From assembly GCA_945877815.1 (NCBI GenBank), contig CAMDWJ010000030.1, forward strand, positions 1 through 49,539: a DNA stretch of 49,539 nt, in the 5' to 3' direction. The notes under the pieces are model-generated. The model had not been told where the DNA came from. It did no database searches and worked only from the letters and a program-made list of their open reading frames with translations. The position numbers and the translations under genes are program-made. Positions 14,790 through 32,870 of this stretch are shown here, one piece after another. Numbering within the stretch: the first letter of the stretch is position 1; every line of letters starts with the position of its first letter. The DNA comes from Caenispirillum bisanense. Lineage in GTDB: Bacteria; Pseudomonadota; Alphaproteobacteria; Rhodospirillales; UBA2165.

Positions 14790-15914
14790 ATGATAAGGGA
14801 CGCGATCCTTTCCGACGTCAAATCGCTGGGCGATCTCGAAGAACGCTGCTTCGAGACCGACCGCATGTCGGAACGCAGCTTTCGTCACATCCTCACGCGC
14901 GGCAAGGCAGCGCTGGTGGTGGACGACGAAAACGGACGCCTGCGCGGCTATGCCCTGGTTCTATTTCACGACAATACCTCGCTCGCGCGGCTCTATTCCA
15001 TCGCGGTGGATACATCGCTTCGCGGCAAGGGTATCGCGCGCGACCTGTTGAAAGCCTCCGAAGAGCGGGCCGTAGCGCGTGGTGCCACGCGTATGCGCCT
15101 CGAAGTTCATGTGGACAACAAGGCGGCGCAGAAATTGTACAAGTCGGTCGGATACCGCGAATTCTCGATCGTTCGCCAATATTATGAAGACAAAGGCGAT
15201 GCGATCCGCATGGAGAAGGAGTTGGCGTCCCATTTGGCGCGCAACCTCGACCGCGTTCCCTATTATCGCCAGACCCTCGATTTTACCTGCGGTCCTGCCT
15301 GCTTGCTGATGGCGATGGTGGCCCAGGTTCCCGATACGCGCGCGGATCGCACCGAGGAGCTGCGTCTGTGGCGCGAAGCGACCACCGTTTTCATGACATC
15401 GGGCCACGGCGGATGCGGACCGATCGGCTTGGCGCTTGCCGCATGGCGGCGCGGCTTCGACGTCGAACTATCCGTGCGCGACGAAGTTGAGCTTTTTGTA
15501 GATTCGGTCCGCAGCGACGAAAAAAAGGAAGTGATCCGACTTGTTGAAAAGGGGTTTTCCGAAGAACTCGCCGCGACGACCATTCATCTGGCACCACGTC
15601 CATTGACCGCATTGGATTTGAAGGAACGGTTGAACCGGGGTGGAATTCCGATCCTTCTCATCAGTTCCTACCGGCTGACAGGCGAAAAGGTTCCCCACTG
15701 GGTCGTTCTGACCGCAGCGGACGAACGATTCGTCTATATAAACGACCCCTACATCGACCGCGACAAGAACCGGAGCGAGACCGACTGCATCGGAATTCCC
15801 ATAATTCCTGCGGAACTCGACCGTATGACGGCGCTCGGCCGTAGAAAAAACGCGGCATCCGTGATCATCTATCCGCCCCGCAAGAACATCACATCCACAA
15901 CAGGCAGGGCTTAA
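14790..15914 (+). CDS. GNAT acetyltransferase fused to a C39-like cysteine peptidase (DUF3335)
   Basis: A 374-residue two-domain protein. Residues 1-145 are a RimI-type N-acetyltransferase with the acetyl-CoA loop RGKGIARDLL near 79-86 and LEVHVDNKAAQKLYKSVGYR. Residues 155-365 are a papain-like C39-family domain with a full apparent triad: Cys167 (DFTCGPACLLMAM), His303 (KVPHWVVL) and Asp319 (YINDPY). The fusion is known to occur next to RimK-like ATP-grasp ligases (RLAN family), as here, where its TAA overlaps the next ATG (TAATG). Role in that context is inferred: cleavage and acetylation of a peptide or of a protein tail made by the ligase. Cytoplasmic, no signal peptide. Confidence 0.88.
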   Translation: MIRDAILSDVKSLGDLEERCFETDRMSERSFRHILTRGKAALVVDDENGRLRGYALVLFHDNTSLARLYSIAVDTSLRGKGIARDLLKASEERAVARGATRMRLEVHVDNKAAQKLYKSVGYREFSIVRQYYEDKGDAIRMEKELASHLARNLDRVPYYRQTLDFTCGPACLLMAMVAQVPDTRADRTEELRLWREATTVFMTSGHGGCGPIGLALAAWRRGFDVELSVRDEVELFVDSVRSDEKKEVIRLVEKGFSEELAATTIHLAPRPLTALDLKERLNRGGIPILLISSYRLTGEKVPHWVVLTAADERFVYINDPYIDRDKNRSETDCIGIPIIPAELDRMTALGRRKNAASVIIYPPRKNITSTTGRA

Positions 15915-17392
15915 TGGCGCGCTACACGATCGTCGTCGATCGGGTCGAAGACTGGAAATGGCCGGAAGACGGATTAAGGTTGATGAGCGCCGACGCGTTC
16001 ATGACCAAGGGGCCACCCGCCGAACAATCGAGCCGCATCATCATCCTATGCCGTCGCTATGTTTATCTGAGTGCCGGCTATTATTGCAGCCTGCTCGCCG
16101 AAGCCCGCGGTCAGGTGCCCATGCCGACCGTCAATGACGTCTTGAGCCTCTCGCAGAAGAGCCTTGTCACCGTAGCCGTACCCGAACTCGAAGAGACCTT
16201 GCAACGGACCATTGCGCGACTGTCGGCGCCACTCGAAGATGCTTTTTCCATTACGATCACCTTCGGCCAACCCGACGATACGCGCTTTCGCCGGTTTGCC
16301 ACCGAATGCTTCGACATTTTCCGTTTTCCCATCATCCAAGTGCATGTCGTCAAAACCGGCAAGGGTTGGACGATCAAGGAAATCGAACCGCTCGGCCTGC
16401 ATCAACTGCCCCAAGAATTGGGCCAGCAATTCCACAATGCACTGCGCGCGCATACGCGGGCACGCAAACCTACCGGACCTGGCTTCCAGCCGTCGCTCTA
16501 CGATCTCGCGATCCTCTACGATCCCGAAGAAATTCTGCCGCCATCGGATGCCGCGGCGCTCGAACGATTCCGCAAGATCGGCGAAGACATGCGGATCGAT
16601 GTCGAGTTGATCACCAAAAAGGATTACGAACGCCTCCCGGAATTCGATGCGTTGTTCATCCGCGCGACGACGGCGATCAATCACTATACCTATCGATTCG
16701 CGCGCAAAGCCGAACTTGAAGGCCTTGCCGTCATCGATGCCACCAGTTCGATCCTGCGCTGCGCCAACAAAGTATTCCTACACGAATTGATGCGCCGTCA
16801 CAAAATCGCGACACCGAAGAGCGAAACCATCAATCGCGCCACCTTCGACGAAGCGACGATCAAAGCGCTCGAACAGGACCTCGGCTATCCGATGGTCCTG
16901 AAAATCCCCGATGGGTCCTTCTCGCGCGGCACGATGAAAGCCGAGAATCGCGCGCAACTCATCGAACATTCCGACACATTGTTGAAAAGTTCGCGCCTGA
17001 TCTTGGCCCAGGAGTTCGTCTATACCAAATTCGATTGGCGCGTCGGCGTCTTGCGCGGCGAGCCAATCTTCGTGTGCCAGTACCTCATGTCGCGCAATCA
17101 CTGGCAGGTGGTCCGTCACCGCGAAGACGGCACCTTCCGCGAGGGCGGCTACAAGACCATGCCGGTCGGCGATGCGCCGCACGAGGTCGTAGCCACCGCG
17201 GTCAAGGCCGCCTCACTGATCGGTGATGGCCTCTACGGTGTCGATCTGAAGCAGACGGATAAGGGGGTCCTGGTGATCGAGGTCAACGACAACCCGAACA
17301 TCGATCACGGGATCGAGGACAAGATTACGCAAGACGCGCTTTACGTAAAAATCCTGTCCGACTTCATCCGCCGCGTCGACGAGGCGGCTTGA
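15914..17392 (+). CDS. RimK-like ATP-grasp ligase with RLAN N-terminal domain
   Basis: A 492-residue protein. Residues 1-200 match the RimK-like ATP-grasp N-terminal (RLAN) type, with LCRRYVYLSAGYYCSLLAEA and an EIEPLGLHQLP stretch. Residues 230-490 are a RimK-type ATP-grasp: the LGYPMVLKIPDGSFSRGTMK nucleotide loop near 328-347 and metal-binding VIEVNDNPNIDHG near 455. ATP-grasp enzymes of this kind join amino acids through amide bonds, as RimK adds glutamates to ribosomal protein S6. The substrate here is unknown. It starts within the stop of the GNAT-C39 gene, so translation is coupled. Its last 29 bases overlap the convergent M14-like gene. Confidence 0.9.
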   Translation: MARYTIVVDRVEDWKWPEDGLRLMSADAFMTKGPPAEQSSRIIILCRRYVYLSAGYYCSLLAEARGQVPMPTVNDVLSLSQKSLVTVAVPELEETLQRTIARLSAPLEDAFSITITFGQPDDTRFRRFATECFDIFRFPIIQVHVVKTGKGWTIKEIEPLGLHQLPQELGQQFHNALRAHTRARKPTGPGFQPSLYDLAILYDPEEILPPSDAAALERFRKIGEDMRIDVELITKKDYERLPEFDALFIRATTAINHYTYRFARKAELEGLAVIDATSSILRCANKVFLHELMRRHKIATPKSETINRATFDEATIKALEQDLGYPMVLKIPDGSFSRGTMKAENRAQLIEHSDTLLKSSRLILAQEFVYTKFDWRVGVLRGEPIFVCQYLMSRNHWQVVRHREDGTFREGGYKTMPVGDAPHEVVATAVKAASLIGDGLYGVDLKQTDKGVLVIEVNDNPNIDHGIEDKITQDALYVKILSDFIRRVDEAA

Positions 17393-23226: not shown

Positions 23227-25050
23227 ATGATCGTCCTTGGGCTCAAATGTTTCAGCCACGATACCGGCGCGGCCATTATCGGCGAATCCGCCGGAGGCCT
23301 TGTCGTCCATGCCATCAGCGAGGCGCGTCTCAACCGGCGCAAACATTCCTTCGCCTATCCGCTGATGTCGATCGCCTATTGCCTGGATGCCTTCGGCTTG
23401 AAGTCGCTCGACGAAGTCGATTTCGTTTGCATCGACCGCCACATGGAAATTTGGCCCGAAGCCCGCTCCCAATTCGGCTATGCCGCCGCGGCCGCTCGGC
23501 GCCATCCGCGTTACGACGACAACCACCGCTGGAATTATCTGATCGAGCAAACGTTGAAGTTGGATTGGAACAGCGTCCGCCTAGTCAATCATATCGACGC
23601 CCATGCAGCCTCAAGCTATTTCGCGAGCCCATTCGATGAGGCTGCCGTCCTGGTCGCCGAAGGTGGAACCGGCATCTATCACGGACAGGGCACCAGCCTT
23701 CGCGTTCGCGACCGGGTAGGCTATCTCGGCGATACCTGGCGCGATGGAGCCGTGGTCTCCCCGCGTCGCGATCATTTCGTCAATTCGTCGTTTCTCTACG
23801 ATACCGTCTCGGCGCTGCTGGGTTATGACATCTTCGGCGCTGGCCAAACCATGGCGCTTGCCGGTTTTGCCGATCGCTTCCCGTCCAGCGACCATTTCAC
23901 GGTGGATCCGGACCGATTCGACGGTTTCGTCGTCAATCACGACAAAACGGTGTCCGGCATGCAAAGACTCGAAAAATTTCAAGGTGGCGACACGGCGGGC
24001 CTCATCGCGGAACGATGGGTCAACCTGGCGCGGCAGGCTCAGGCGACCCTGGAAACCGATCTGCTTTACCTTGCCAATCTCGCCCGCGACAAAACCGGTC
24101 TGTCCCGTCTCGCCTATGCCGGCGGCGCGGCTCTTAATTGCCTCATCAACGCCCGTATCCTCGAGACCGGAACGTTTAAGAAACTTTTCGTTCAGCCTGC
24201 CGCGTCAGATGAGGGCATTCCGTTGGGCTGCGCCCTGTCAGGCTATTATGCCGCCGGCGGAAAACAGCGTTGGGTGATGGAGACAGCCTATCTCGGCTGC
24301 CCGCCTGCCCCCGCACCGCTCGGCGAAATTGCCCGCACACATGGCCTCTCGGTCGGTTTCGCCGATCCCGAGGCCATTGCCGCATTGTTGGCCCACGGCG
24401 CGATCATTGGACGTTGTGCCGGCGGCAGCGAATTCGGCCCACGCGCGCTCGGCAATCGCTCCATCCTCGCCGACCCCCGCCCCGCGGGAATGAAAGACCG
24501 TCTCAATGCGGAAATAAAACATCGCGAAGGATTCCGCCCGTTCGCCCCATCGTGTCTGGCCGATGCTCCGCCCGAATGGCTGACAGCGCCCGGCACCAGT
24601 CCGTTCATGTTGCTTGCGGGACGCGTCAGCGCCGAAGGACACGCCATAGCCCCGGCGGTCATTCATGCCGACGGAACAAGCCGCGTTCAAACCGTCACCC
24701 GCGACGCCAACCCGGGCTACTACGATCTCATCAAAGCATTCGGCCTGCGCACCGGCTGCTCGGTCCTGCTCAATACATCCTTCAACGACAAGGACGAACC
24801 GATCGTCGAAACCGAAGAAGATGCGATGAATTGTATGTTGCGGACGGGCCTCGACGCTGTCGTACTGGGCGACCGGCTGGTCAGCCGCACAACAGCGACA
24901 CGCTCGCCCGATGTCGCCCTCCTGCGCCACCAGATCGAAGAGCGCGTCCAAAGCAGTTATTTGCAATTGATCGAGCGCTTTTGCGATATGGAAGGCTACG
25001 TGGCACTTGCAACCCGGCTCAATGCCGAAACATCTCAAACCGCACCGTAA
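23227..25050 (+). CDS. carbamoyltransferase (NodU/CmcH/TobZ family)
   Basis: A 607-residue two-domain enzyme. The ATG at 23227 gives MIVLGLKCFSHDTGAAI, the normal family start. The N-terminal Kae1-like domain has the metal His in VNHIDAHAASSYFASPF and LAYAGGAALNCLINARI. The C-terminal domain has SEFGPRALGNRSILADPRP and VLLNTSFNDKDEPIV. These enzymes use carbamoyl phosphate to put a carbamoyl group on sugars, antibiotics or Nod factors. No biosynthetic cluster for a specialised metabolite is visible. Convergent neighbours are TPR glycosyltransferases, and their stops overlap by 16 bases. A surface or flagellar glycan acceptor is possible but is inference. Confidence 0.94.
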   Translation: MIVLGLKCFSHDTGAAIIGESAGGLVVHAISEARLNRRKHSFAYPLMSIAYCLDAFGLKSLDEVDFVCIDRHMEIWPEARSQFGYAAAAARRHPRYDDNHRWNYLIEQTLKLDWNSVRLVNHIDAHAASSYFASPFDEAAVLVAEGGTGIYHGQGTSLRVRDRVGYLGDTWRDGAVVSPRRDHFVNSSFLYDTVSALLGYDIFGAGQTMALAGFADRFPSSDHFTVDPDRFDGFVVNHDKTVSGMQRLEKFQGGDTAGLIAERWVNLARQAQATLETDLLYLANLARDKTGLSRLAYAGGAALNCLINARILETGTFKKLFVQPAASDEGIPLGCALSGYYAAGGKQRWVMETAYLGCPPAPAPLGEIARTHGLSVGFADPEAIAALLAHGAIIGRCAGGSEFGPRALGNRSILADPRPAGMKDRLNAEIKHREGFRPFAPSCLADAPPEWLTAPGTSPFMLLAGRVSAEGHAIAPAVIHADGTSRVQTVTRDANPGYYDLIKAFGLRTGCSVLLNTSFNDKDEPIVETEEDAMNCMLRTGLDAVVLGDRLVSRTTATRSPDVALLRHQIEERVQSSYLQLIERFCDMEGYVALATRLNAETSQTAP

Positions 25051-26831
25051 ACCGCCTTCTCGAAAAACCGAGCATGTTCTGCGATTGGTGCCGGATCGTC
25101 AATCAGTCGCGGCGCCAACGCCCGAATACGGCTCCGCATCTCGGCATTAAAGACTTCATCGCGGGCCAAGCGCACGGCGAGTTCGACATATTCGTCGCCA
25201 TTCCTGGCCACGAGATCGGTCATGCCCATCCGGCGATAGAGACCCAGCGTCACACGCGAGCGCATGAAATCGCCCGGCAAGGCAACCACGGGCGCACCCG
25301 CCGTCAACGCTTCGAAACTGGAAAGACCGCCGCAGAAATGCGGCGTGTCGAGAACAACTCGCGCCGAAGCCAAAAGGGCCATGAAGCCCGCTCGATCGCG
25401 ACGCGGCACGAAACGAATTCGATCCAGAACATGAGGAATGGTCCGCTTCCAACGCGCTTCCAAGGCCTTTTGCCATTCGGAGTGCTGGCCGGCCAATAGC
25501 ACCAATTCGGCATCAGGGGACCGCGCCAATATGCGACCAATCAGCGGATCGAATTCCGGGTGCAGCTTGAAGAGCGATTGCGGGCATAAAAAAACCGGGC
25601 CGCTCATCTCATCGCATCCGGCATCGGGCGCCGCGACCGACGCCGGCAGGGTATCGAGCCGAACCAGCCGTTCGGTATAAGCTATCTCGGCACCATCGGG
25701 TTCGATCGGTCGGCCCGAGATAAAATAGTCGAGGCTCGTAATTCCGGTCGTGACCGGATGCCCCCATGAGACGCACTGCACCGGGGCCAAACGCGCGAAG
25801 GCCAAAAAATAGGTCAGGGGGTCCATGCCGATATCGGTGAAATAAAGAACATCGAGTTCAGCCGCCGCAAGCGCCTCTCGCGCCGCGGCGAGGTTGTTCG
25901 GCAGCCGATCGAACAACCGCACATCGAACTTGTCGCGCGGAAGTCCTTCGATCAGTCTTTCGTTGAGGCGCGCGATGGTGTGGTCGCGCAGGAATGCCGA
26001 GGCAAAGCCAACGCGAATCCGCCCACCTTCGAGACCACCCATCCAATCGCGGCAATGCGGCGCCGTAAAGGAGAGCGATGGGCAGGCGCCGCGATAAAGT
26101 TCGGCAAGGGATTCCATCAGCGGCCGATCGTCGCGGCCATGATAGGCCAAATGAAAGGGTGTAGCTCCGACCTGCGTCAACGGATCGGTAAGCCGCAATT
26201 CCGCACCAGCCAAATCCGCCAAATTCTCAGCGATGCGCGCCCGTGTATCCTCGATCTCGGCAAGCGAGCCAGCGATGACCGGCATGGCAAGAGCCGCACG
26301 GATGCACGCGCCGGAATTGTCACGCAATGCGGCGGCACGGCCGAAACCGTCGATCGCGTCTTTCGTCCGCCCCAGGAATTCATCGAGATCGGCAAGATTG
26401 CGATGGGCCGGCGAGAAGTGAGGATCGGCAGAAATGGCGGCTCGGTAGGAGTCAGCGGCGTCGGTCCACCGTTTCAGTTGCTTCAGCACGTTGCCGAGAT
26501 TGTTGTGGGCCGGAGCATAAGACGGATCACCGGTAACGGCATGACGATAATGTTCTTCGGCTTCGACGAGACGCCCAAGATCCTTGAGGAGATTGCCGAA
26601 ATTGTAGTGTAGATGTGTTTCGCCGGGTGCGAGGCTGATCGCTTGCTTGAAATGCGCCTCTGCATCCTTAAATACACCGGCAAGATGAGCGACCACTCCA
26701 ATGTCGCCATGAATATCCGCGCGCGAGCCGTCCAATTCTATGGCTTGCGCCAAAGCCTCAAGTGCGGATGCCAATTCACCGCGCTCGAACGCCGCGACAC
26801 CTCGGCGATGCCAGACATCCGCATCGTTCAT
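25035..26831 (-). CDS. TPR protein with SPINDLY/OGT-type glycosyltransferase domain (GT41)
   Basis: A 598-residue protein. Residues 1-170 are four to five tetratricopeptide repeats (for example YNFGNLLKDLGRLVEAEEHY and HNNLGNVLKQLKRWTDAADS). Residues 230-590 match the GT41 domain of bacterial O-GlcNAc-transferase-like proteins: GGRIRVGFASAFLRDHTIAR, the DIGMDPLTYFLAFARLAPVQ with CVSWGHPVTTG, and a C-terminal LDTPHFCGGLSSFEALTAGA nucleotide-sugar site. Such proteins glycosylate proteins on Ser/Thr or act on small molecules. The ATG overlaps the stop of the upstream TPR gene (ATGA), so the two are coupled. Confidence 0.93.
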   Translation of the reverse strand: MNDADVWHRRGVAAFERGELASALEALAQAIELDGSRADIHGDIGVVAHLAGVFKDAEAHFKQAISLAPGETHLHYNFGNLLKDLGRLVEAEEHYRHAVTGDPSYAPAHNNLGNVLKQLKRWTDAADSYRAAISADPHFSPAHRNLADLDEFLGRTKDAIDGFGRAAALRDNSGACIRAALAMPVIAGSLAEIEDTRARIAENLADLAGAELRLTDPLTQVGATPFHLAYHGRDDRPLMESLAELYRGACPSLSFTAPHCRDWMGGLEGGRIRVGFASAFLRDHTIARLNERLIEGLPRDKFDVRLFDRLPNNLAAAREALAAAELDVLYFTDIGMDPLTYFLAFARLAPVQCVSWGHPVTTGITSLDYFISGRPIEPDGAEIAYTERLVRLDTLPASVAAPDAGCDEMSGPVFLCPQSLFKLHPEFDPLIGRILARSPDAELVLLAGQHSEWQKALEARWKRTIPHVLDRIRFVPRRDRAGFMALLASARVVLDTPHFCGGLSSFEALTAGAPVVALPGDFMRSRVTLGLYRRMGMTDLVARNGDEYVELAVRLARDEVFNAEMRSRIRALAPRLIDDPAPIAEHARFFEKAVYGAV

Positions 26832-28048
26832 CGGCGCAGATCACGGGCGAGGCTTGCGAGCGCGAAACCCCAGGCGTCCGACGGCGATTGCCGATACAAG
26901 GAAAATCCCGGAAACCACGGCGAGCTTTCGCCCGTCGCCATCCAACGATACTCAGCCGGATTTGCGACCAGAACGCGCGCCACACGCCCGGCTGCGGCAC
27001 GGAGATGGATATTGGTATTGCTGACCCCGATGTAATCATCGAGCAGATACATCAGGGCGAGCATGTCTTCGATATCGTCATTGCGATTGCTCAGATCGGC
27101 AATGCGTCGTCCTGCAGCCGCCTCTAGGCGCGCGTGTTCGCCTGATTGAGGTGCACGCTGCATATCGATCAGGGTTCCCTGCACTTGGCGCAAAGCCGCG
27201 CCAAGCCGATCGAGAGGCACTTCCTTGAACAAGACACCTTCACCACGTTGGCCGGCTCGCCATGTCAACCCGATATAGGGCGGCGGTCCGGCCTGTTCGA
27301 GCATCGTCCGCAGGAACGCGAGACGATCTGACCGAGGAGCTACGGGAAGTGCGCTAGGGCAAGTCGTGACTCCCAACAAAAACGGCAGATCGCCAAGAGC
27401 CACGCGAAATGTACGCGCAGTATCGTACGTCTCTCCGAAATCCATCATCCGTGAGACAATGTCCCCGATGCGGCCCTCGGCTCGATAGCGAATGACGGCG
27501 CCTCGCGTACGCAGAGCCGGAGCGAAGCGCAGGAAAAATAGCGCATCGCCCAAACCCTGCTCATCGACGATCTCGATGATCGTCCCCGATAGATCCACCG
27601 GCAATTCCGCCAGAGGCGTTTCCGCCCGATCGATGCCGGGACGGAACAGATAGTTCGTCCAACCATCGGCGAAGCATCCTTCGGCTAGATCAATCGTTGC
27701 GAGATTCCAACGCACGGCGGCAAAGGCCGGGCGCAACGCCAAGGCGCGCTCGTAAGACGCCCTCGCCTCCACCAGTTTGCCTTGGATACGTAAATTACTG
27801 CCCAGCCCAGCCCAAGGCTCGGCGACTTCCGGCCCTGCGGAGATGGCGGCACGAAACCGGCGCTCCGCCGATTTATGTTCACCGAGGTCGTCGAGCAGCG
27901 TCCCTAAATTATTCAGGGCCCGCACATAACCGGGATCGATCTCAATGGCGTGTTCATAGCACGCGCGGGCATCGGCGATGCGTCCGGCACGGATATGCGC
28001 GAGCGCCGCATTAAAAAACTCGATGGCCTGCTGGTGGGTTTTCGTCAT
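26828..28048 (-). CDS. TPR protein with C-terminal GT-B-like domain
   Basis: A 406-residue protein started at the ATG at 28048, which lies exactly before the first TPR. The longer frame to 28417 overlaps the divergent gene. Residues 3-130 are three to four TPRs (YEHAIEIDPGYVRALNNLGT). The rest (EIVDEQGLGDALFFLRFAPA, IGLTWRAGQRGEG and LDDYIGVSNTNIHLRAAAGR) resembles the TPR-linked domain of the glycosyltransferase 9/heptosyltransferase-like group found beside flagellar and surface-glycan genes. It lies 26 bases from the divergent DUF4202 start. It is followed by the GT41 gene with a 4-base overlap, so together they form a two-gene operon. Confidence 0.82.
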   Translation of the reverse strand: MTKTHQQAIEFFNAALAHIRAGRIADARACYEHAIEIDPGYVRALNNLGTLLDDLGEHKSAERRFRAAISAGPEVAEPWAGLGSNLRIQGKLVEARASYERALALRPAFAAVRWNLATIDLAEGCFADGWTNYLFRPGIDRAETPLAELPVDLSGTIIEIVDEQGLGDALFFLRFAPALRTRGAVIRYRAEGRIGDIVSRMMDFGETYDTARTFRVALGDLPFLLGVTTCPSALPVAPRSDRLAFLRTMLEQAGPPPYIGLTWRAGQRGEGVLFKEVPLDRLGAALRQVQGTLIDMQRAPQSGEHARLEAAAGRRIADLSNRNDDIEDMLALMYLLDDYIGVSNTNIHLRAAAGRVARVLVANPAEYRWMATGESSPWFPGFSLYRQSPSDAWGFALASLARDLRR

Positions 28049-28074
28049 GGTGCTTCGCGAGTATAGTCGAAGCC

Positions 28075-28662
28075 ATGACAAGGTTCGACGACGCAATCGC
28101 AGGCATCGACACGGCCAATGCGGCAGACCCCAATCAAGAAAGCTTCGCGGGCCAAACCTGGCCGAAAGAGCTTCTCTACGGGCATCGCATGACTGCCTGG
28201 CTCGATCGCCTTGCCCCCGAAGCGTCCGAATCGTTGCGCCTTGCCGCTCGGGCACAACATATCGAGCGATGGCACATTCCGCGCACGAACTACGAGGACG
28301 GCAAGAAGGGCTATCATTTATGGCGCACGACGCTCTACTGCTATCACGCCGAACGCGCAGGGGAAATTCTGGTCGCTGTCGGCTACGATTCGACGACGAT
28401 CGAGAGAGTTGGAGCATTACTGCAGAAAAAGCACTTACGCTCCGACATTGAGGCGCAGACGATCGAAGATGCCGCCTGCCTCGTTTTCCTGGAAAACTAC
28501 TTCACCGACTTCGCCACGAAACATGACGAAGCCAAAATCGTTGATATCGTCAGAAAGACTTGGGCGAAAATGTCGCCGAACGGTCATGCTGCCGCGCTTG
28601 GCCTCGCCGGACAACTTCCGAAGAAGGCACGCCGTCTCGTCGAGGCGGCCTTGGCCCCCTAG
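28075..28662 (+). CDS. DUF4202-family protein
   Basis: A 195-residue protein recognised as the DUF4202 type, an uncharacterised HD-like family. Visible are KELLYGHRMTAWLDRLAPEA, LRLAARAQHIERWHIPRTNY, and LWRTTLYCYHAERAGEI, with several conserved His and Arg that could bind a metal or nucleotide. Function unknown. It starts 26 bases from the divergent TPR gene. Its stop overlaps the convergent giant coiled-coil gene by 4 bases. Confidence 0.88.
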   Translation: MTRFDDAIAGIDTANAADPNQESFAGQTWPKELLYGHRMTAWLDRLAPEASESLRLAARAQHIERWHIPRTNYEDGKKGYHLWRTTLYCYHAERAGEILVAVGYDSTTIERVGALLQKKHLRSDIEAQTIEDAACLVFLENYFTDFATKHDEAKIVDIVRKTWAKMSPNGHAAALGLAGQLPKKARRLVEAALAP

Positions 28663-31600
28663 CCCGCGTCTTCGTCGTCGCCCCCCGGGTCGGCCCTATC
28701 CAGCGCCGCTCTCAGCACCAGATAAACCTTGCCGGCGTCGGACGTCATAAGGGACGCACAAACAACGCCCTCGTGATCGCTACGTTTCGCCGCCGTGATC
28801 AATCCATCGAATTGATGGATATAGCGGTTCACGTAATCGCGGAAACCGGTATTGTCGCGATAGAGCTTGTTGATCCGCGACAGTTTGGCCCGCGTGCGCA
28901 GGCCCAAGATCTTACGCAAGAACACGCCTTTGTCGCCGCGACTGTAGCGATTCCAATCGTCCTCACTGATGTGGGTTTCCATCAGTCGATTCATATCGAT
29001 CGCGACCGATTCAAGTCCCTCGTTCACAAGCGTCATGCGGCGTAGAAAGTCTTCAGTGCCGAGCTTCTTCGACTGTTCCTTCAAGGATTCAGAAATCTGC
29101 TGCGCCCGCGACGAGGCTTTCAACAATTCGTTGGTCTGACGCTTGACCGCATCCACGGCCTCGCCCGTCTGCGCACCGAGATGATTTGCCGCTGCGGTGA
29201 GATTGTCCGTGCCGCGCATCAAGGCACCGTTCCAATTCTCCATCTCGGAGATCGCCTTGCGCGACGTCGCCTCGGCGTTAGATGCGGTTTCGGAAATTGA
29301 AGACCCCGCCATATCGATCCCCGAAACAGCCTTCTCAAAAGAAGTACTCAATTCATTGAGCTGGCGTCGGACCTGTTCGCCAGCCGCCAAAAGCCGCCGC
29401 GATACGCTTGAGGAAGCTTCCCCGGCCCCCTCGGTTTCGGATCGAATGGCTGCGCCAATCTCGCGCAATTTTTCCAAATTCATCTGGGCCACGCGCGCCG
29501 AAGCACGTGCTGTCTTCTCGAAGGCCTGCTCGGCGGCGAGGGCTGCATCCGCGGCCTTGCTAGATGCTTCGGACAATTGATCCGTTCGGACATGCACGAC
29601 ATCGGCAGAACCTTCTAATTTGGAAATTGCCATGTCGGATGAAGCCGCAAGATCGTCAAGACGTTGGCGCACAGTTCGGCTCGCTTCGTCCATGCGATGC
29701 GTCGAAGAATCGGCAACGCCGGCCAACGATTCAGCCCCTTCGCGCAATGCCTCGTTCATCGATCGAGTGCGCTCGACCGCATGTTCAGAGGCTTGCGCGA
29801 CGACATCGGCTTGACGCTGCAAACCGGACGTAACGGTCGTGAGCAGCTTCGCCGCACGATCGACCGCAAGCGCAACCTCGCGCGAACGTTCCTGCAACGC
29901 ATTGCCCACCCGCTCCACCTGCGCCGTAGCCTCGCCGGATGCTCCACCAAGTTCGACAGAGCGTTTGCGCAAAGCTTCAGCAAAGGCTTGAACGTGCGTA
30001 TTGGATTCAGTCGCCGCCTGAGCGAACTCTTCGGTTCGCTGGCGGAAAATAGCCCCCAATCTATTGAGCCGTTCCTCGGTCTCGGTCGATGTTTCGCTCA
30101 CGGTTCCGAGATTGGTCGACAATTCCTCAGCGATACGCTGTAGACGCGAGGCAGCCTCGTCCGCCGCTGACGCCGCTTCGCGCGAACGATCAAGTAATTG
30201 ATTGCCAACGGAACCGACATCCTTGATGGCATTATTGGACGCACTCGCCAGTTCTTTCGAACGCTCGTGCAAGGCTGCGGCCGATTCACTGACCTGCCGA
30301 ACCAGATCGGCCGACAATATGCGCATTCGACCGGCACGATCCTCCAGCGTCTCCCACGTTTCGTCGATTCGCGACACCGCGACATCGGTAATATCCGACA
30401 ATTCGCGCGAACGCTGGTGAAGTTTGGCTCCGACCGATTCAATTTGATCGGTGGCCGTCGTTGTCGTATGCGACAGATCCTTAGATTGCCGATGCAAAGT
30501 ATCGTTCACCGCCCCCAACATGCGCGATGCGCGTTCAGTGGCGTTGGCAATCTCTGTCGAACGATGATCCATCGCATCGCTTGCCTTGGTCAGGTCTTCG
30601 ACGGCTTTGTCCGCCTCGGTCGATAATTGCGACGATTTTTGACGCAAATTCTCGGCGACACCATTGATGCGGTTGGTCGATGATTCGGCGATCGCCGAAA
30701 GTTCCTGGGAGCGGCGCTCCAGGACAACGCCGATGGTACGCAGCCGCTCGGTCGCCTTGCCCGAAGATTCACCCAAGGAGCGCGATTCTTCGCGCAACGC
30801 ATCGCCGACTTCGCTGATCTGTTTGATGCTGTCGGTTGCGGTCGCGGCGACAATGACCGCCTGTTGGATCAAGGCATCCTGCGCCTTGCACATATCGCCG
30901 TTCGACGACTCCGATGTCACATGCAGTTCGCGGATGTGATCGACAATCTGTTCCAGCTGTATTTGCAACTGTCGGGTCGCGGCGGCGGAAGACTGAGTCA
31001 GCGAGTCAATGCGCTCGCGGAAACCGTCACTGATCGAGGTTGTCTGTTGCGTCGCGCGCGCAAGTTCATCGAGATCGCGACGCAGCGCAGCCACAGCCCT
31101 ATCCACGCCGGCGACGCTGGCATCGGCAGCTTCCTTCACCTCAAGCTTCGCATGATGCAGGCGCTGTGCCGCATCCTCGATCAGACCATTGGCATCCTTG
31201 GAAATCCCGGCGAGTTCATCCGCGCTGGCGCGAACCGCATCGCCCGATGCATCGAGACGCAAGGTGACGATATCGCCCACACGGGCAATGTGGTCGGCGC
31301 GGTCCTGCAGGGCCCCGCCCGCCTCGGTCATATCCGAAACCGCCCGTTCCGTCGCAGCGGTTATCTGGTCGGTCTGCTTCTGCATTTCGCTATTCGCGCG
31401 ATCGACCCGGTTAAAGACGGTCTCGACCGTGCGGTCGAGGGCATCGGCCACTTCCTGAATATGCCCGCCGGCACCGCGCGCGCGCGTCGCCGCACGATCC
31501 GAGGCGCTGTCCAGCGTTTCCGCTTGGCGGCGAAATTCATCGGTCGCCAACGTCATTTTCTTGATGGTCGTGTCGCTCGCCGACAGTAAAGCGCGGGTCT

Positions 31601-32870
31601 CCGTGCCGATTTCGGAACCGGCCTCCCGCGCGCGCAATAGCGTGCCTTCCGTCGAGGACTGCAAGTTTTTAGCCTCGGCTTCGATCAGCCTAACGATCTC
31701 ATACGTTTGCGCCGATGCGCGCGCGACCGCGTCATTCAAATTCTCGGCCTGGTGCGATAGCGCTTCACCGATCATATCGGACTGGACGACGACCTGATCC
31801 GAGCGGCGTGTCATGTCGAGCGCATAATCTTTCAAACCGACGCTCGCGGCCTCGACTCGTTTGGCCGCAAGCTCGGTGGCATTCGCCAGCATCGTCGCAT
31901 TGTCCGACAAATCGCGCCCCATGGCCTGCGCGCGAGCTGCGGCGGTGGCCGAAACCTGATCCAGCGTCTGGGCGCGGTTTTGGAACAGGTCAGCGGTATC
32001 GTGCGCACGCTTCGCCGATTCCTCTGCGACGCGCATGAGTTCCTCGCCGCTGCGCTGCAACGCGTTGGTGATATCCTCGGTCCGCGCCGCCGCCTGTTGG
32101 GATACGTTGATCAAATCGTGCGACTGATGGTGCAGCACGTTTCCGGCTTCGCGCGCGCGCGCGATCGCCCGATCCGACGCCGTGACGAGATCTTCGGCCT
32201 GACGGCGTAAATTCTCGCCCGCACTTTCGGATTTCAGCGCCGCTTGATCGGACGCGGCGGCCAAAGCCATCGTTTGCGCCTTGATCAATGCCGCAGCGTC
32301 GGCCGCACGCCCAGCGGCCTCTTCCGAGCTTTCGGTCAATTGGCGCGCTTGCAGGCGAAGATGTTCGGCGATTTCGGAAACACGTCCCGTCGCCATCTCG
32401 GACGGATAGGTAAAACGGCTTAAATGCCACCGCAAGGCGCGTGCTTCGCCTTGATAGATACGCGCACGCTCGTAAACCGCGGCGACGATCCAGAGCAGCG
32501 CGATCGGCGTGGCCACGCCCGCAAAAAGCCCGCCCACTTCATGCGGCAGCAACGTCGCCAACGCGTCGAAACCGAGATCGTTGGCGATATAGAGATAGGC
32601 GCCGGCAAGCCAGCCAAGCGACAAGACCGTCGCGCCGATGGTCAGTAGGCGATAGCGCAGATAAAACGGCGGAGTCCATTCGTCGGGCTCGATTGGAGCA
32701 CTGTCATAAAAACGATTGGTTTCCTTCGCCGGCGGCTCGGCGATTGATGGGCGCTCCTGACGGTCGAAGGGCCATTCGGGCGAGCGTCCCTCGGGCCAAT
32801 TAGCCCCTCGATCATGGACGACCTCGATCGACGGATTAGACGCGTCCTTACGATCCGGCGTAAACGCCAT
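28659..32870 (-). CDS. 1403-residue membrane-anchored coiled-coil protein with 25-residue repeats
   Basis: I do not recognise a named family. Residues 1-70 are polar and Pro-rich, likely cytoplasmic. Two transmembrane helices follow at about 75-95 (LLTIGATVLSLGWLAGAYLY) and 112-133. Residues 207-1254 are a continuous helical stretch of about 42 tandem units of 25 residues with almost no indels, a pattern close to A..R....G..L..RS.EL..AS. A single register slip is seen near residue 607. The last 150 residues are a compact basic domain (DDWNRYSRGDKGVFLRKILG). It lacks HAMP and the conserved chemoreceptor hairpin, so it is not an MCP. The start has GGAGG 7 bases upstream. A role in envelope organisation or cell-pole architecture is only a guess. 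Confidence 0.9.
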   Translation of the reverse strand: MAFTPDRKDASNPSIEVVHDRGANWPEGRSPEWPFDRQERPSIAEPPAKETNRFYDSAPIEPDEWTPPFYLRYRLLTIGATVLSLGWLAGAYLYIANDLGFDALATLLPHEVGGLFAGVATPIALLWIVAAVYERARIYQGEARALRWHLSRFTYPSEMATGRVSEIAEHLRLQARQLTESSEEAAGRAADAAALIKAQTMALAAASDQAALKSESAGENLRRQAEDLVTASDRAIARAREAGNVLHHQSHDLINVSQQAAARTEDITNALQRSGEELMRVAEESAKRAHDTADLFQNRAQTLDQVSATAAARAQAMGRDLSDNATMLANATELAAKRVEAASVGLKDYALDMTRRSDQVVVQSDMIGEALSHQAENLNDAVARASAQTYEIVRLIEAEAKNLQSSTEGTLLRAREAGSEIGTETRALLSASDTTIKKMTLATDEFRRQAETLDSASDRAATRARGAGGHIQEVADALDRTVETVFNRVDRANSEMQKQTDQITAATERAVSDMTEAGGALQDRADHIARVGDIVTLRLDASGDAVRASADELAGISKDANGLIEDAAQRLHHAKLEVKEAADASVAGVDRAVAALRRDLDELARATQQTTSISDGFRERIDSLTQSSAAATRQLQIQLEQIVDHIRELHVTSESSNGDMCKAQDALIQQAVIVAATATDSIKQISEVGDALREESRSLGESSGKATERLRTIGVVLERRSQELSAIAESSTNRINGVAENLRQKSSQLSTEADKAVEDLTKASDAMDHRSTEIANATERASRMLGAVNDTLHRQSKDLSHTTTTATDQIESVGAKLHQRSRELSDITDVAVSRIDETWETLEDRAGRMRILSADLVRQVSESAAALHERSKELASASNNAIKDVGSVGNQLLDRSREAASAADEAASRLQRIAEELSTNLGTVSETSTETEERLNRLGAIFRQRTEEFAQAATESNTHVQAFAEALRKRSVELGGASGEATAQVERVGNALQERSREVALAVDRAAKLLTTVTSGLQRQADVVAQASEHAVERTRSMNEALREGAESLAGVADSSTHRMDEASRTVRQRLDDLAASSDMAISKLEGSADVVHVRTDQLSEASSKAADAALAAEQAFEKTARASARVAQMNLEKLREIGAAIRSETEGAGEASSSVSRRLLAAGEQVRRQLNELSTSFEKAVSGIDMAGSSISETASNAEATSRKAISEMENWNGALMRGTDNLTAAANHLGAQTGEAVDAVKRQTNELLKASSRAQQISESLKEQSKKLGTEDFLRRMTLVNEGLESVAIDMNRLMETHISEDDWNRYSRGDKGVFLRKILGLRTRAKLSRINKLYRDNTGFRDYVNRYIHQFDGLITAAKRSDHEGVVCASLMTSDAGKVYLVLRAALDRADPGGDDEDAG
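29109..32252 (-). repeat. coding region of about 42 tandem 25-residue (75-base) repeats
   Basis: Units align without gaps when the protein is cut every 25 residues. Examples are SDRAIARAREAGNVLHHQSH, SQQAAARTEDITNALQRSGE, TATDQIESVGAKLHQRSREL and EATAQVERVGNALQERSREV, each being the first 20 of 25. Conservation is at the level of residue type (Ala near position 2-5, Leu near 11-15, Arg-Ser before Glu-Leu). The DNA copies are diverged, so this is an old repeat maintained by selection on length. Confidence 0.85.

Follow-up and report, generated by a model that had tools for sequence, protein, structure and literature searches.

A membrane-anchored coiled-coil protein of Caenispirillum bisanense with a 25-residue rod repeat: a probable polar scaffold of the GPR/RgsE family

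A stretch of 49,539 nucleotides from Caenispirillum bisanense (Alphaproteobacteria, Rhodospirillales; the whole of contig CAMDWJ010000030.1 of assembly GCA_945877815.1), referred to below as the window, carries on its minus strand an open reading frame (ORF, 28659-32870) encoding a very long coiled-coil protein of 1403 aa that has a single match within its own genome. As judged from homology at both of its ends, the window protein belongs to the GPR/RgsE family of polar scaffolds. By analogy with these proteins, and with a probability of roughly 0.7, we consider it an inner-membrane polar scaffold or landmark, anchored by a helical hairpin, with a cytoplasmic rod and oligomeric at the pole. 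An earlier note on this DNA had described a giant coiled coil and proposed a molecular ruler or tether, leaving the family unplaced; its reading was supported in part. Articles identified by PMC number are cited from excerpts, to which the statements drawn from them are limited. The features of the gene are as follows, all on the minus strand.

28659..32870 (-), coding sequence, 1403 aa plus stop, membrane-anchored coiled-coil scaffold, GPR/RgsE family by homology (ORF, own-genome search, homology)
32649..32870 (-), N-terminal tail, residues 1-74, taken as cytoplasmic (basic residues flanking transmembrane (TM) helix 1, read by eye)
32583..32648 (-), predicted TM helix 1, residues 75-96 (Kyte-Doolittle hydropathy; AlphaFold2 (AF2) helix)
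32469..32540 (-), predicted TM helix 2, residues 111-134 (hydropathy; AF2); the short loop between the two TM helices carries an LLPHE motif, common in the same order
32166..32468 (-), stem, residues 135-235, start of the cytoplasmic helix (homology to Rhizobiales proteins; AF2)
29073..32420 (-), coiled-coil rod, residues 151-1266: 43 units of 25 residues, one of 21 and one partial (autocorrelation, joint fit)
31008..31070 (-), 21-residue unit, residues 601-621, with a register slip at 611 (joint fit)
28695..29084 (-), C-terminal all-helical domain, residues 1263-1392 (AF2, conservation, profile homology)
28662..28694 (-), acidic C-terminal tail, residues 1393-1403 (sequence)

The placement in the GPR/RgsE family was based on comparison with a Rhizobiales set, loci L101-L180, the best 80 of 565 confirmed loci obtained with a C-terminal profile from a hendecad branch. 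Sixty-four of these loci were assigned to Hyphomicrobiales (= Rhizobiales), 14 to Bosea sp. without resolved rank and 2 to 'Proteobacteria bacterium', and the set includes Bosea, Microvirga, Chelatococcus, Brucella tritici and Aliihoeflea. Profile-profile comparison (hhalign) gave an expect value (E) of 4e-33 for the C-terminal domain and of 6e-14 for the TM pair plus stem. At the level of single sequences, the C-terminus of the window protein was 34% identical over 108 residues, without gaps, to that of the Brucella tritici locus L175 (E 5e-22), and the stem showed near-gapless homology with Rhizobiales proteins, including a conserved Pro156. Scanning the genome contigs with the window protein alone found no relative; profiles found them. 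The C-terminal profile A1 matched 107 of 289 genomes of the class, 105 of them with one match; the matching open frames measure 266-2752 aa, contig ends having truncated the shortest. In a sample of 299 genomes of the phylum it matched 73, all of them in the window's class. Family membership itself is not new, since RgsE homologues have been reported in all Rhizobiales families, with distant ones in Rhodospirillales and Emcibacterales (PMC7327166). The published architecture of GPR/RgsE comprises two TM helices and a cytoplasmic bulk (PMC8262873, PMC7327166), and the RgsE homologue of a Brucella species sits at the new pole (PMC9938171). Size extremes were also observed: weak C-terminal-domain matches on ORFs of 329-377 aa (G081, G212, G310, G445 and others of f53), possibly rod-less, and very large members of 2752 aa (L070, with a strong 44-residue repeat) and 2872 aa (G493).

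The two-membrane-helix anchor proposed earlier was upheld as a prediction. Kyte-Doolittle hydropathy placed two hydrophobic helices at about residues 75-96 and 111-134; because basic residues occupy their outer flanks and the short loop between them is acidic (read from the sequence), both termini are predicted to face the cytoplasm. The AF2 model of residues 55-235 (pLDDT 81, pTM only 0.36, nine sequences) is a helical hairpin whose second helix continues long after a break near Pro156. The capping C-terminal domain was likewise borne out and proved to be conserved among relatives. It was all-helical by AF2 (pLDDT 67), had no Pfam match at E<=1, and its model had 0 Foldseek matches against the PDB at E<=0.001 (best 0.15). 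No relationship was read from two further searches: VIA-align gave Z of at most 8.8 with designed repeats and syntaxin/STAT bundles, a common range for helical bundles, and a PDB sequence search with profile A1 gave a best E of 0.0063, to designed proteins. A weak NCBIfam match (TIGR02168, 23.8 bits) might suggest an SMC/condensin-like chromosome protein. The cut-off of that model is 567 bits, however, the match is confined to the rod, the window protein has no ATPase domain over the Pfam cut-off and lacks heads and hinge, and the genome has a separate SMC (841 bits); the probability of this explanation is negligible.

The strict 25-residue period of the rod, as announced in the earlier note, was confirmed by autocorrelation, phase-keeping shuffles and Fourier analysis. 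Autocorrelation (BLOSUM62, residues 151-1290) gave z-scores of 13.8-18.4 at lags 25, 50, 75, 100, 125, 150, 175 and 200, the next-best lag reaching 8.6. When the shuffles preserved helical phase, with 3, 5 or 7 bins, the z-score at lag 25 was still 10.5-13.8, a level reached by 0 of 1000 shuffles. Hydrophobicity peaked at 3.57 = 25/7 residues per turn, and mean identity among the 43 rod units was 0.185 vs 0.084 with rotated units. In the unit derived from a joint fit, positions 2, 13, 16 and 20 are occupied by large hydrophobics, position 9 by alanine and positions 5, 6 and 24 by small residues. The core steps are 7, 7 and 11, which agrees with the proposed make-up of one hendecad and two heptads. 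The unit length of the 42 units counted previously thus stands, but the count becomes 43 plus one of 21; similarly, the single register slip was retained, with its position moved from about residue 607 to 611. These values come from a seeded joint fit of the window protein and 21 equal-length relatives, which gave one slip of 4 at residue 611 and otherwise units of 25 throughout; it superseded an unseeded fit on the window protein alone, in which no slip was found. In 35 of 40 same-order rods a slip of 4 lay between rod positions 439 and 486; a clean one was missing there in L025, L042, L044, L045 and L046. Overall slip statistics (100 of 113 in phase-preserving sizes) were not used as proof: they are biased because the fitting model itself favours registers that stay in phase, and the slips around rod position 1100 fall on the domain junction. 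Helical periodicity extends throughout residues 151-1266, pointing to more than 1000 residues of continuous helix. At the DNA level, Tandem Repeats Finder detected no tandem repeat in the window.

Unit lengths that varied widely among relatives had been named earlier as an argument against the 25-residue reading. Within the order no such variation appeared, the strongest repeat lag being a multiple of 25 in all 45 proteins scored; outside it the unit did change. Among 84 rods scored from L001-L100, about half of which come from the window's order, 70 were of type 25, 5 of type 11, 3 of type 47, 2 of type 29, 1 of type 18 and 3 were weak, while 73 of 74 Rhizobiales rods were of type 11 and one of type 29. 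These rods are related rather than independent and some labels are mixtures, the Brucella loci scoring at both 11 and 29; ORFs below 700 aa, contig-edge fragments, duplicates and five Rhizobiales loci without a recovered ORF were left out. Median residues per turn were 3.570 for type 25 (n=70), 3.622 for types 29 (n=3) and 47 (n=3), and 3.662 for type 11 (n=78). Two members from large genomes, L220 (2245 aa) and L221 (2049 aa), had 3.638 per turn, with high lags 29, 36 and 18. Heptad coils wind left-handed and hendecad coils right-handed, and about 3.6 residues per turn corresponds to a straight rod. The medians consequently lie on both sides of the straight value, and the rods may differ in winding, supercoil and packing, with possible effects on function.

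A tree of the C-terminal domain (86 rows), in which 50 of 83 inner branches were unresolved, required at least 7 changes between 25 and other periods. Because L066 (type 25) and L073 (type 29, on a long branch and of unsure placement) join the base of the Rhizobiales clade (99% in the Shimodaira-Hasegawa-like approximate likelihood ratio test, SH-aLRT), it tentatively suggests that the period passed from 25 to 29 to 11 toward Rhizobiales. An association of the 11-residue rod with loss of MreB was considered and not upheld. MreB over the cut-off was missing in 4 of 52 genomes, three with 11-residue rods (G340, G247, G128) and G044, which keeps 25. This last genome, of the same order and listed as 100% complete, combines the missing MreB with a 25-residue rod of 702 residues (L044). 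The excerpts of open-access literature that were consulted did not mention, for the GPR/RgsE family, either a 25-residue unit or a switch of period.

The differences in rod repeat also bear on the apolipoprotein-like character ascribed to GPR, whose rod has been described in print by PF01442 (apolipoprotein A1/A4/E) domains as part of a lipid hypothesis. PF01442 scored 94-279 bits (cut-off 90) in all seven Rhizobiales proteins tested, with the 29-type L154 at the low end; these scores would favour a lipid-binding rod sorting membrane lipids at the pole. The window protein, however, had no PF01442 match at E<=1, and four 25-type relatives reached at most 22.1 bits or did not appear. None of the five members of type 25 or 47 that were tested reached 23 bits: L016 and L035 (type 25) scored 21 and 22 bits, and L076, L066 (25) and L067 (47) did not appear at E<=0.01. 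The 29-type L073 scored 76 bits and L095 (29/58) 18. Nothing matched in the window's own genome at E<=0.001, and weak matches, none over the cut-off, occurred in 7 of 14 control genomes. Apolipoproteins of PF01442 consist of 11/22-residue repeats, and the match tracks the 11-residue content of a rod rather than membership of the family; because it does so within one family, it offers little support for lipid binding by descent. A lipid-binding rod is therefore very unlikely for the window protein, and the PF01442 descriptor, which it lacks, was not taken as defining the wider family.

A slight balance of probability favours a view that unites these observations, in which a single scaffold family kept its ends and rebuilt its rod (25, 29/47 or 11/22/44). 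The shift from 3.570 to 3.662 residues per turn would cross the straight value, windings would differ between branches, apolipoprotein character would be a by-product of hendecads, and length would change in quanta of 196 residues.

Regarding rod length, the set examined comprised 40 complete same-order rods (41 rows minus one duplicate, L048 repeating L019). Twenty-two, the window protein included, had exactly 1116 residues. They span nine families (f1, n=13; f15, n=2; f3, f5, f9, f18, f21, f25 and f26, n=1 each), with identity to the window protein of 22-81% at zero offset, spread along the rod. The most distant, L032, has the weakest alignment of the set, given its 22% at zero offset vs 17% at the best other offset. 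L100, also of 1116 residues, was dropped as a coincidence (10% identity). Equality of length across such divergence is what a strict ruler or tether would predict, the rod setting one fixed distance of about 165 nm between the inner membrane and a cytoplasmic target, and length-conserved coiled coils have been described as spacers (PMC5082667). Two observations speak against this explanation. First, near-constant length is not special to the window protein: in a control sought only in the 22 equal-rod genomes, SMC spans in the 13 genomes with a single full-length match were 1141-1145 residues, varying by only 4, and register alone may explain the constancy. Second, the 18 other same-order rods differed, with four large shortfalls (-414, -410, -276, -204) and 14 further offsets (-15, -4, -1, +7, +11, +11, +22, +22, +29, +55, +121, +196, +588, +784), giving a range of 702 to 1900 residues. 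Given this range and the added 196-residue modules, a ruler of a single fixed length does not hold generally, and we regard it as unlikely for the window protein. The length conservation proposed in the earlier note thus holds for 22 rods of the order, but it is matched by SMC and did not extend to the remaining rods; a universal molecular ruler was unsupported.

The largest gains are modular. L039 (1312), L035 (1704) and L036 (1900) equal 1116 plus 1, 3 and 4 times 196, with best-window identities at lag 196 of 0.45 for L039 and 0.89 for both others; in L036 (2839-5490), DNA copies spaced by 588 bp are 78-88% identical to the reference copy. L037, from another family and split over two frames, had 0.75 at lags 196 and 392. 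Since 196 = 7x25+21, each module carries one register slip. L018 belongs to the same family as L039 (f9) and has 1116 residues, so the 196-residue step was taken, or lost, within f9. Tandem growth by 588-bp (196-residue) modules with a register slip was thus seen in L035, L036, L037 and L039, from three families of the order. The split gene of L037, as well as an in-frame TGA in the matched stretch of G029:C374, may reflect assembly error or decay.

Returning to the polar scaffold reading, a mechanism can be proposed. The two-helix hairpin would fix the protein to the inner membrane and leave both termini, as predicted, on the cytoplasmic side. TM helix 2 would run through the stem into the coiled-coil rod, whose 1116 residues would span about 165 nm at full extension and the standard rise per residue. 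Most likely the protein collects at a single pole of the cell and forms a parallel oligomer there, in which a need for in-phase packing of neighbouring helices or rods could explain why the strict register is kept. Rod length would evolve in small increments, with some relatives also gaining entire modules of 196 residues. The C-terminal domain may dock partners or help function at the pole, by analogy with deletions in GPR: loss of the last 10 residues gave misshapen, curved, constricted cells and loss of the last 221 the strongest failure to complement (PMC8262873). A narrower possibility is an organiser of the growth zone in the strict GPR sense, that is, a ring directing zonal peptidoglycan synthesis at the growing pole. 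Homology to the GPR/RgsE family and the need of polar growth for the GPR ring (PMC8262873) are in its favour. Nevertheless, a different role outside Rhizobiales has been raised (PMC7327166), and Rhizobiales are without MreBCD (PMC8546619). MreB in the window's own genome scored 528 bits vs a family cut-off of 366, and a protein with the PF10691 (PopZ) domain is present as well. Because of these two proteins, a TipN-like landmark role is likelier in this host than the running of polar growth, and the strict growth-zone organiser is rather improbable.

Several points weigh against the polar scaffold reading. GPR, RgsE and TipN were represented by loci of the same order, not by their own records. 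The C-terminal profile A1 had no match in 182 of 289 genomes of the class, so that the domain is either not universal or too diverged to be seen. The rod unit of the window protein is 25 (3.57 residues per turn) vs 11/22/44 or 29 (3.62-3.66) in L101-L180, and none of the 11 neighbour genes tested was found beside the gene in these 80 loci. Deletion of 332 residues from GPR was milder than that of 221 and paired foci still formed (PMC8262873); the C-terminal domain would accordingly matter for function, not for ring formation. Finally, no CtrA-like site was found near the gene, a search with the CtrA-type consensus giving 3 one-mismatch matches vs 4.6 expected.

TipN has a two-TM topology, and the GPR/RgsE family is probably also its family, as judged from profile matches to genomes of f93, Caulobacterales-like genomes standing in for Caulobacter TipN itself. 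The proteins encoded by G579, G582 and G474 are 830, 837 and 1005 aa long and each contain a pair of hydrophobic helices; two of the three genomes carry the holdfast gene HfaA (control, C. vibrioides). With profiles built without them, and in a very small database, C-terminal E values were 1.5e-13, 2.9e-11 and 4.8e-8, and the N-terminal profile found two of the three (E 2.8e-7 and 1.5e-7), missing G582; widened profiles that had seen the sequences were set aside for L217-L219. Over the whole genomes, A1 gave E values of 2.2e-9, 1.0e-5 and 7.0e-4, and it had no match in the f93 genomes G121, G335 and G614. Other HfaA-bearing genomes (f34, f35, f151) carry members of 686-1030 aa. TipN of Caulobacter has 882 aa (PMC13170164); GPR has been reported to resemble it (PMC8546619) and the two have been called analogous (PMC13170164).

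Concerning the gene neighbourhood, DUF1244 adjoins the scaffold gene in 13 loci of its own family, and CtaA does so in 5 loci belonging to other families of the order, the flank being only 1.5 kb in most loci outside L101-L180. Synteny was rejected as proof of orthology, since these genes adjoin some loci but no tested neighbour does so in L101-L180. Two genes for TPR proteins, one with a GT41 (OGT-like) domain, adjoin the scaffold gene in the window (25035-28417, minus strand), and a TPR homologue lies beside it in 12 distinct loci. At 14790-17392 (plus strand), a GNAT + DUF3335 (C39-like) gene is followed by a gene for an RLAN/RimK-like ATP-grasp protein, perhaps a peptide-modification pair.

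The making and recognition of poles in alphaproteobacteria depend centrally on GPR/RgsE and TipN. The present homologues may offer a natural series with the same ends and varied rod pitch and length, in which the roles of length, pitch and end domains could be separated. The C-terminal domain, with its lack of a Pfam match, may serve as a class-wide marker for finding such scaffolds, and the differences in rod repeat call the apolipoprotein/lipid reading of GPR into question. If the proposed family history is true, the direction in which the rod winds would depend on the alphaproteobacterial branch, and a rod could also remain straight.

Compared with known systems, the window protein is closest to GPR (Atu1348, Agrobacterium) and RgsE (SMc00190, Sinorhizobium), to which it was compared through L101-L180. 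It shares with these loci two N-terminal TM helices (10 loci checked), a stem, a very long helical rod and a homologous domain at the C-terminus; unlike the GPR/RgsE representatives, it has no PF01442 match and its host has MreB. The TipN-like proteins of f93 share the two TM helices, and the C-terminal profile matched all three and the N-terminal profile two of them, but their rod is shorter and its 25-residue signal weak (z 4.9-6.4). The apolipoproteins of PF01442 differ from the window rod in period, over-cut-off matches being confined to the 11-rich branches among those tested. SMC arms, which have ATPase heads, a hinge and other ends, and no membrane anchor, have in common with the window rod a very small length variation over about 1100 residues.

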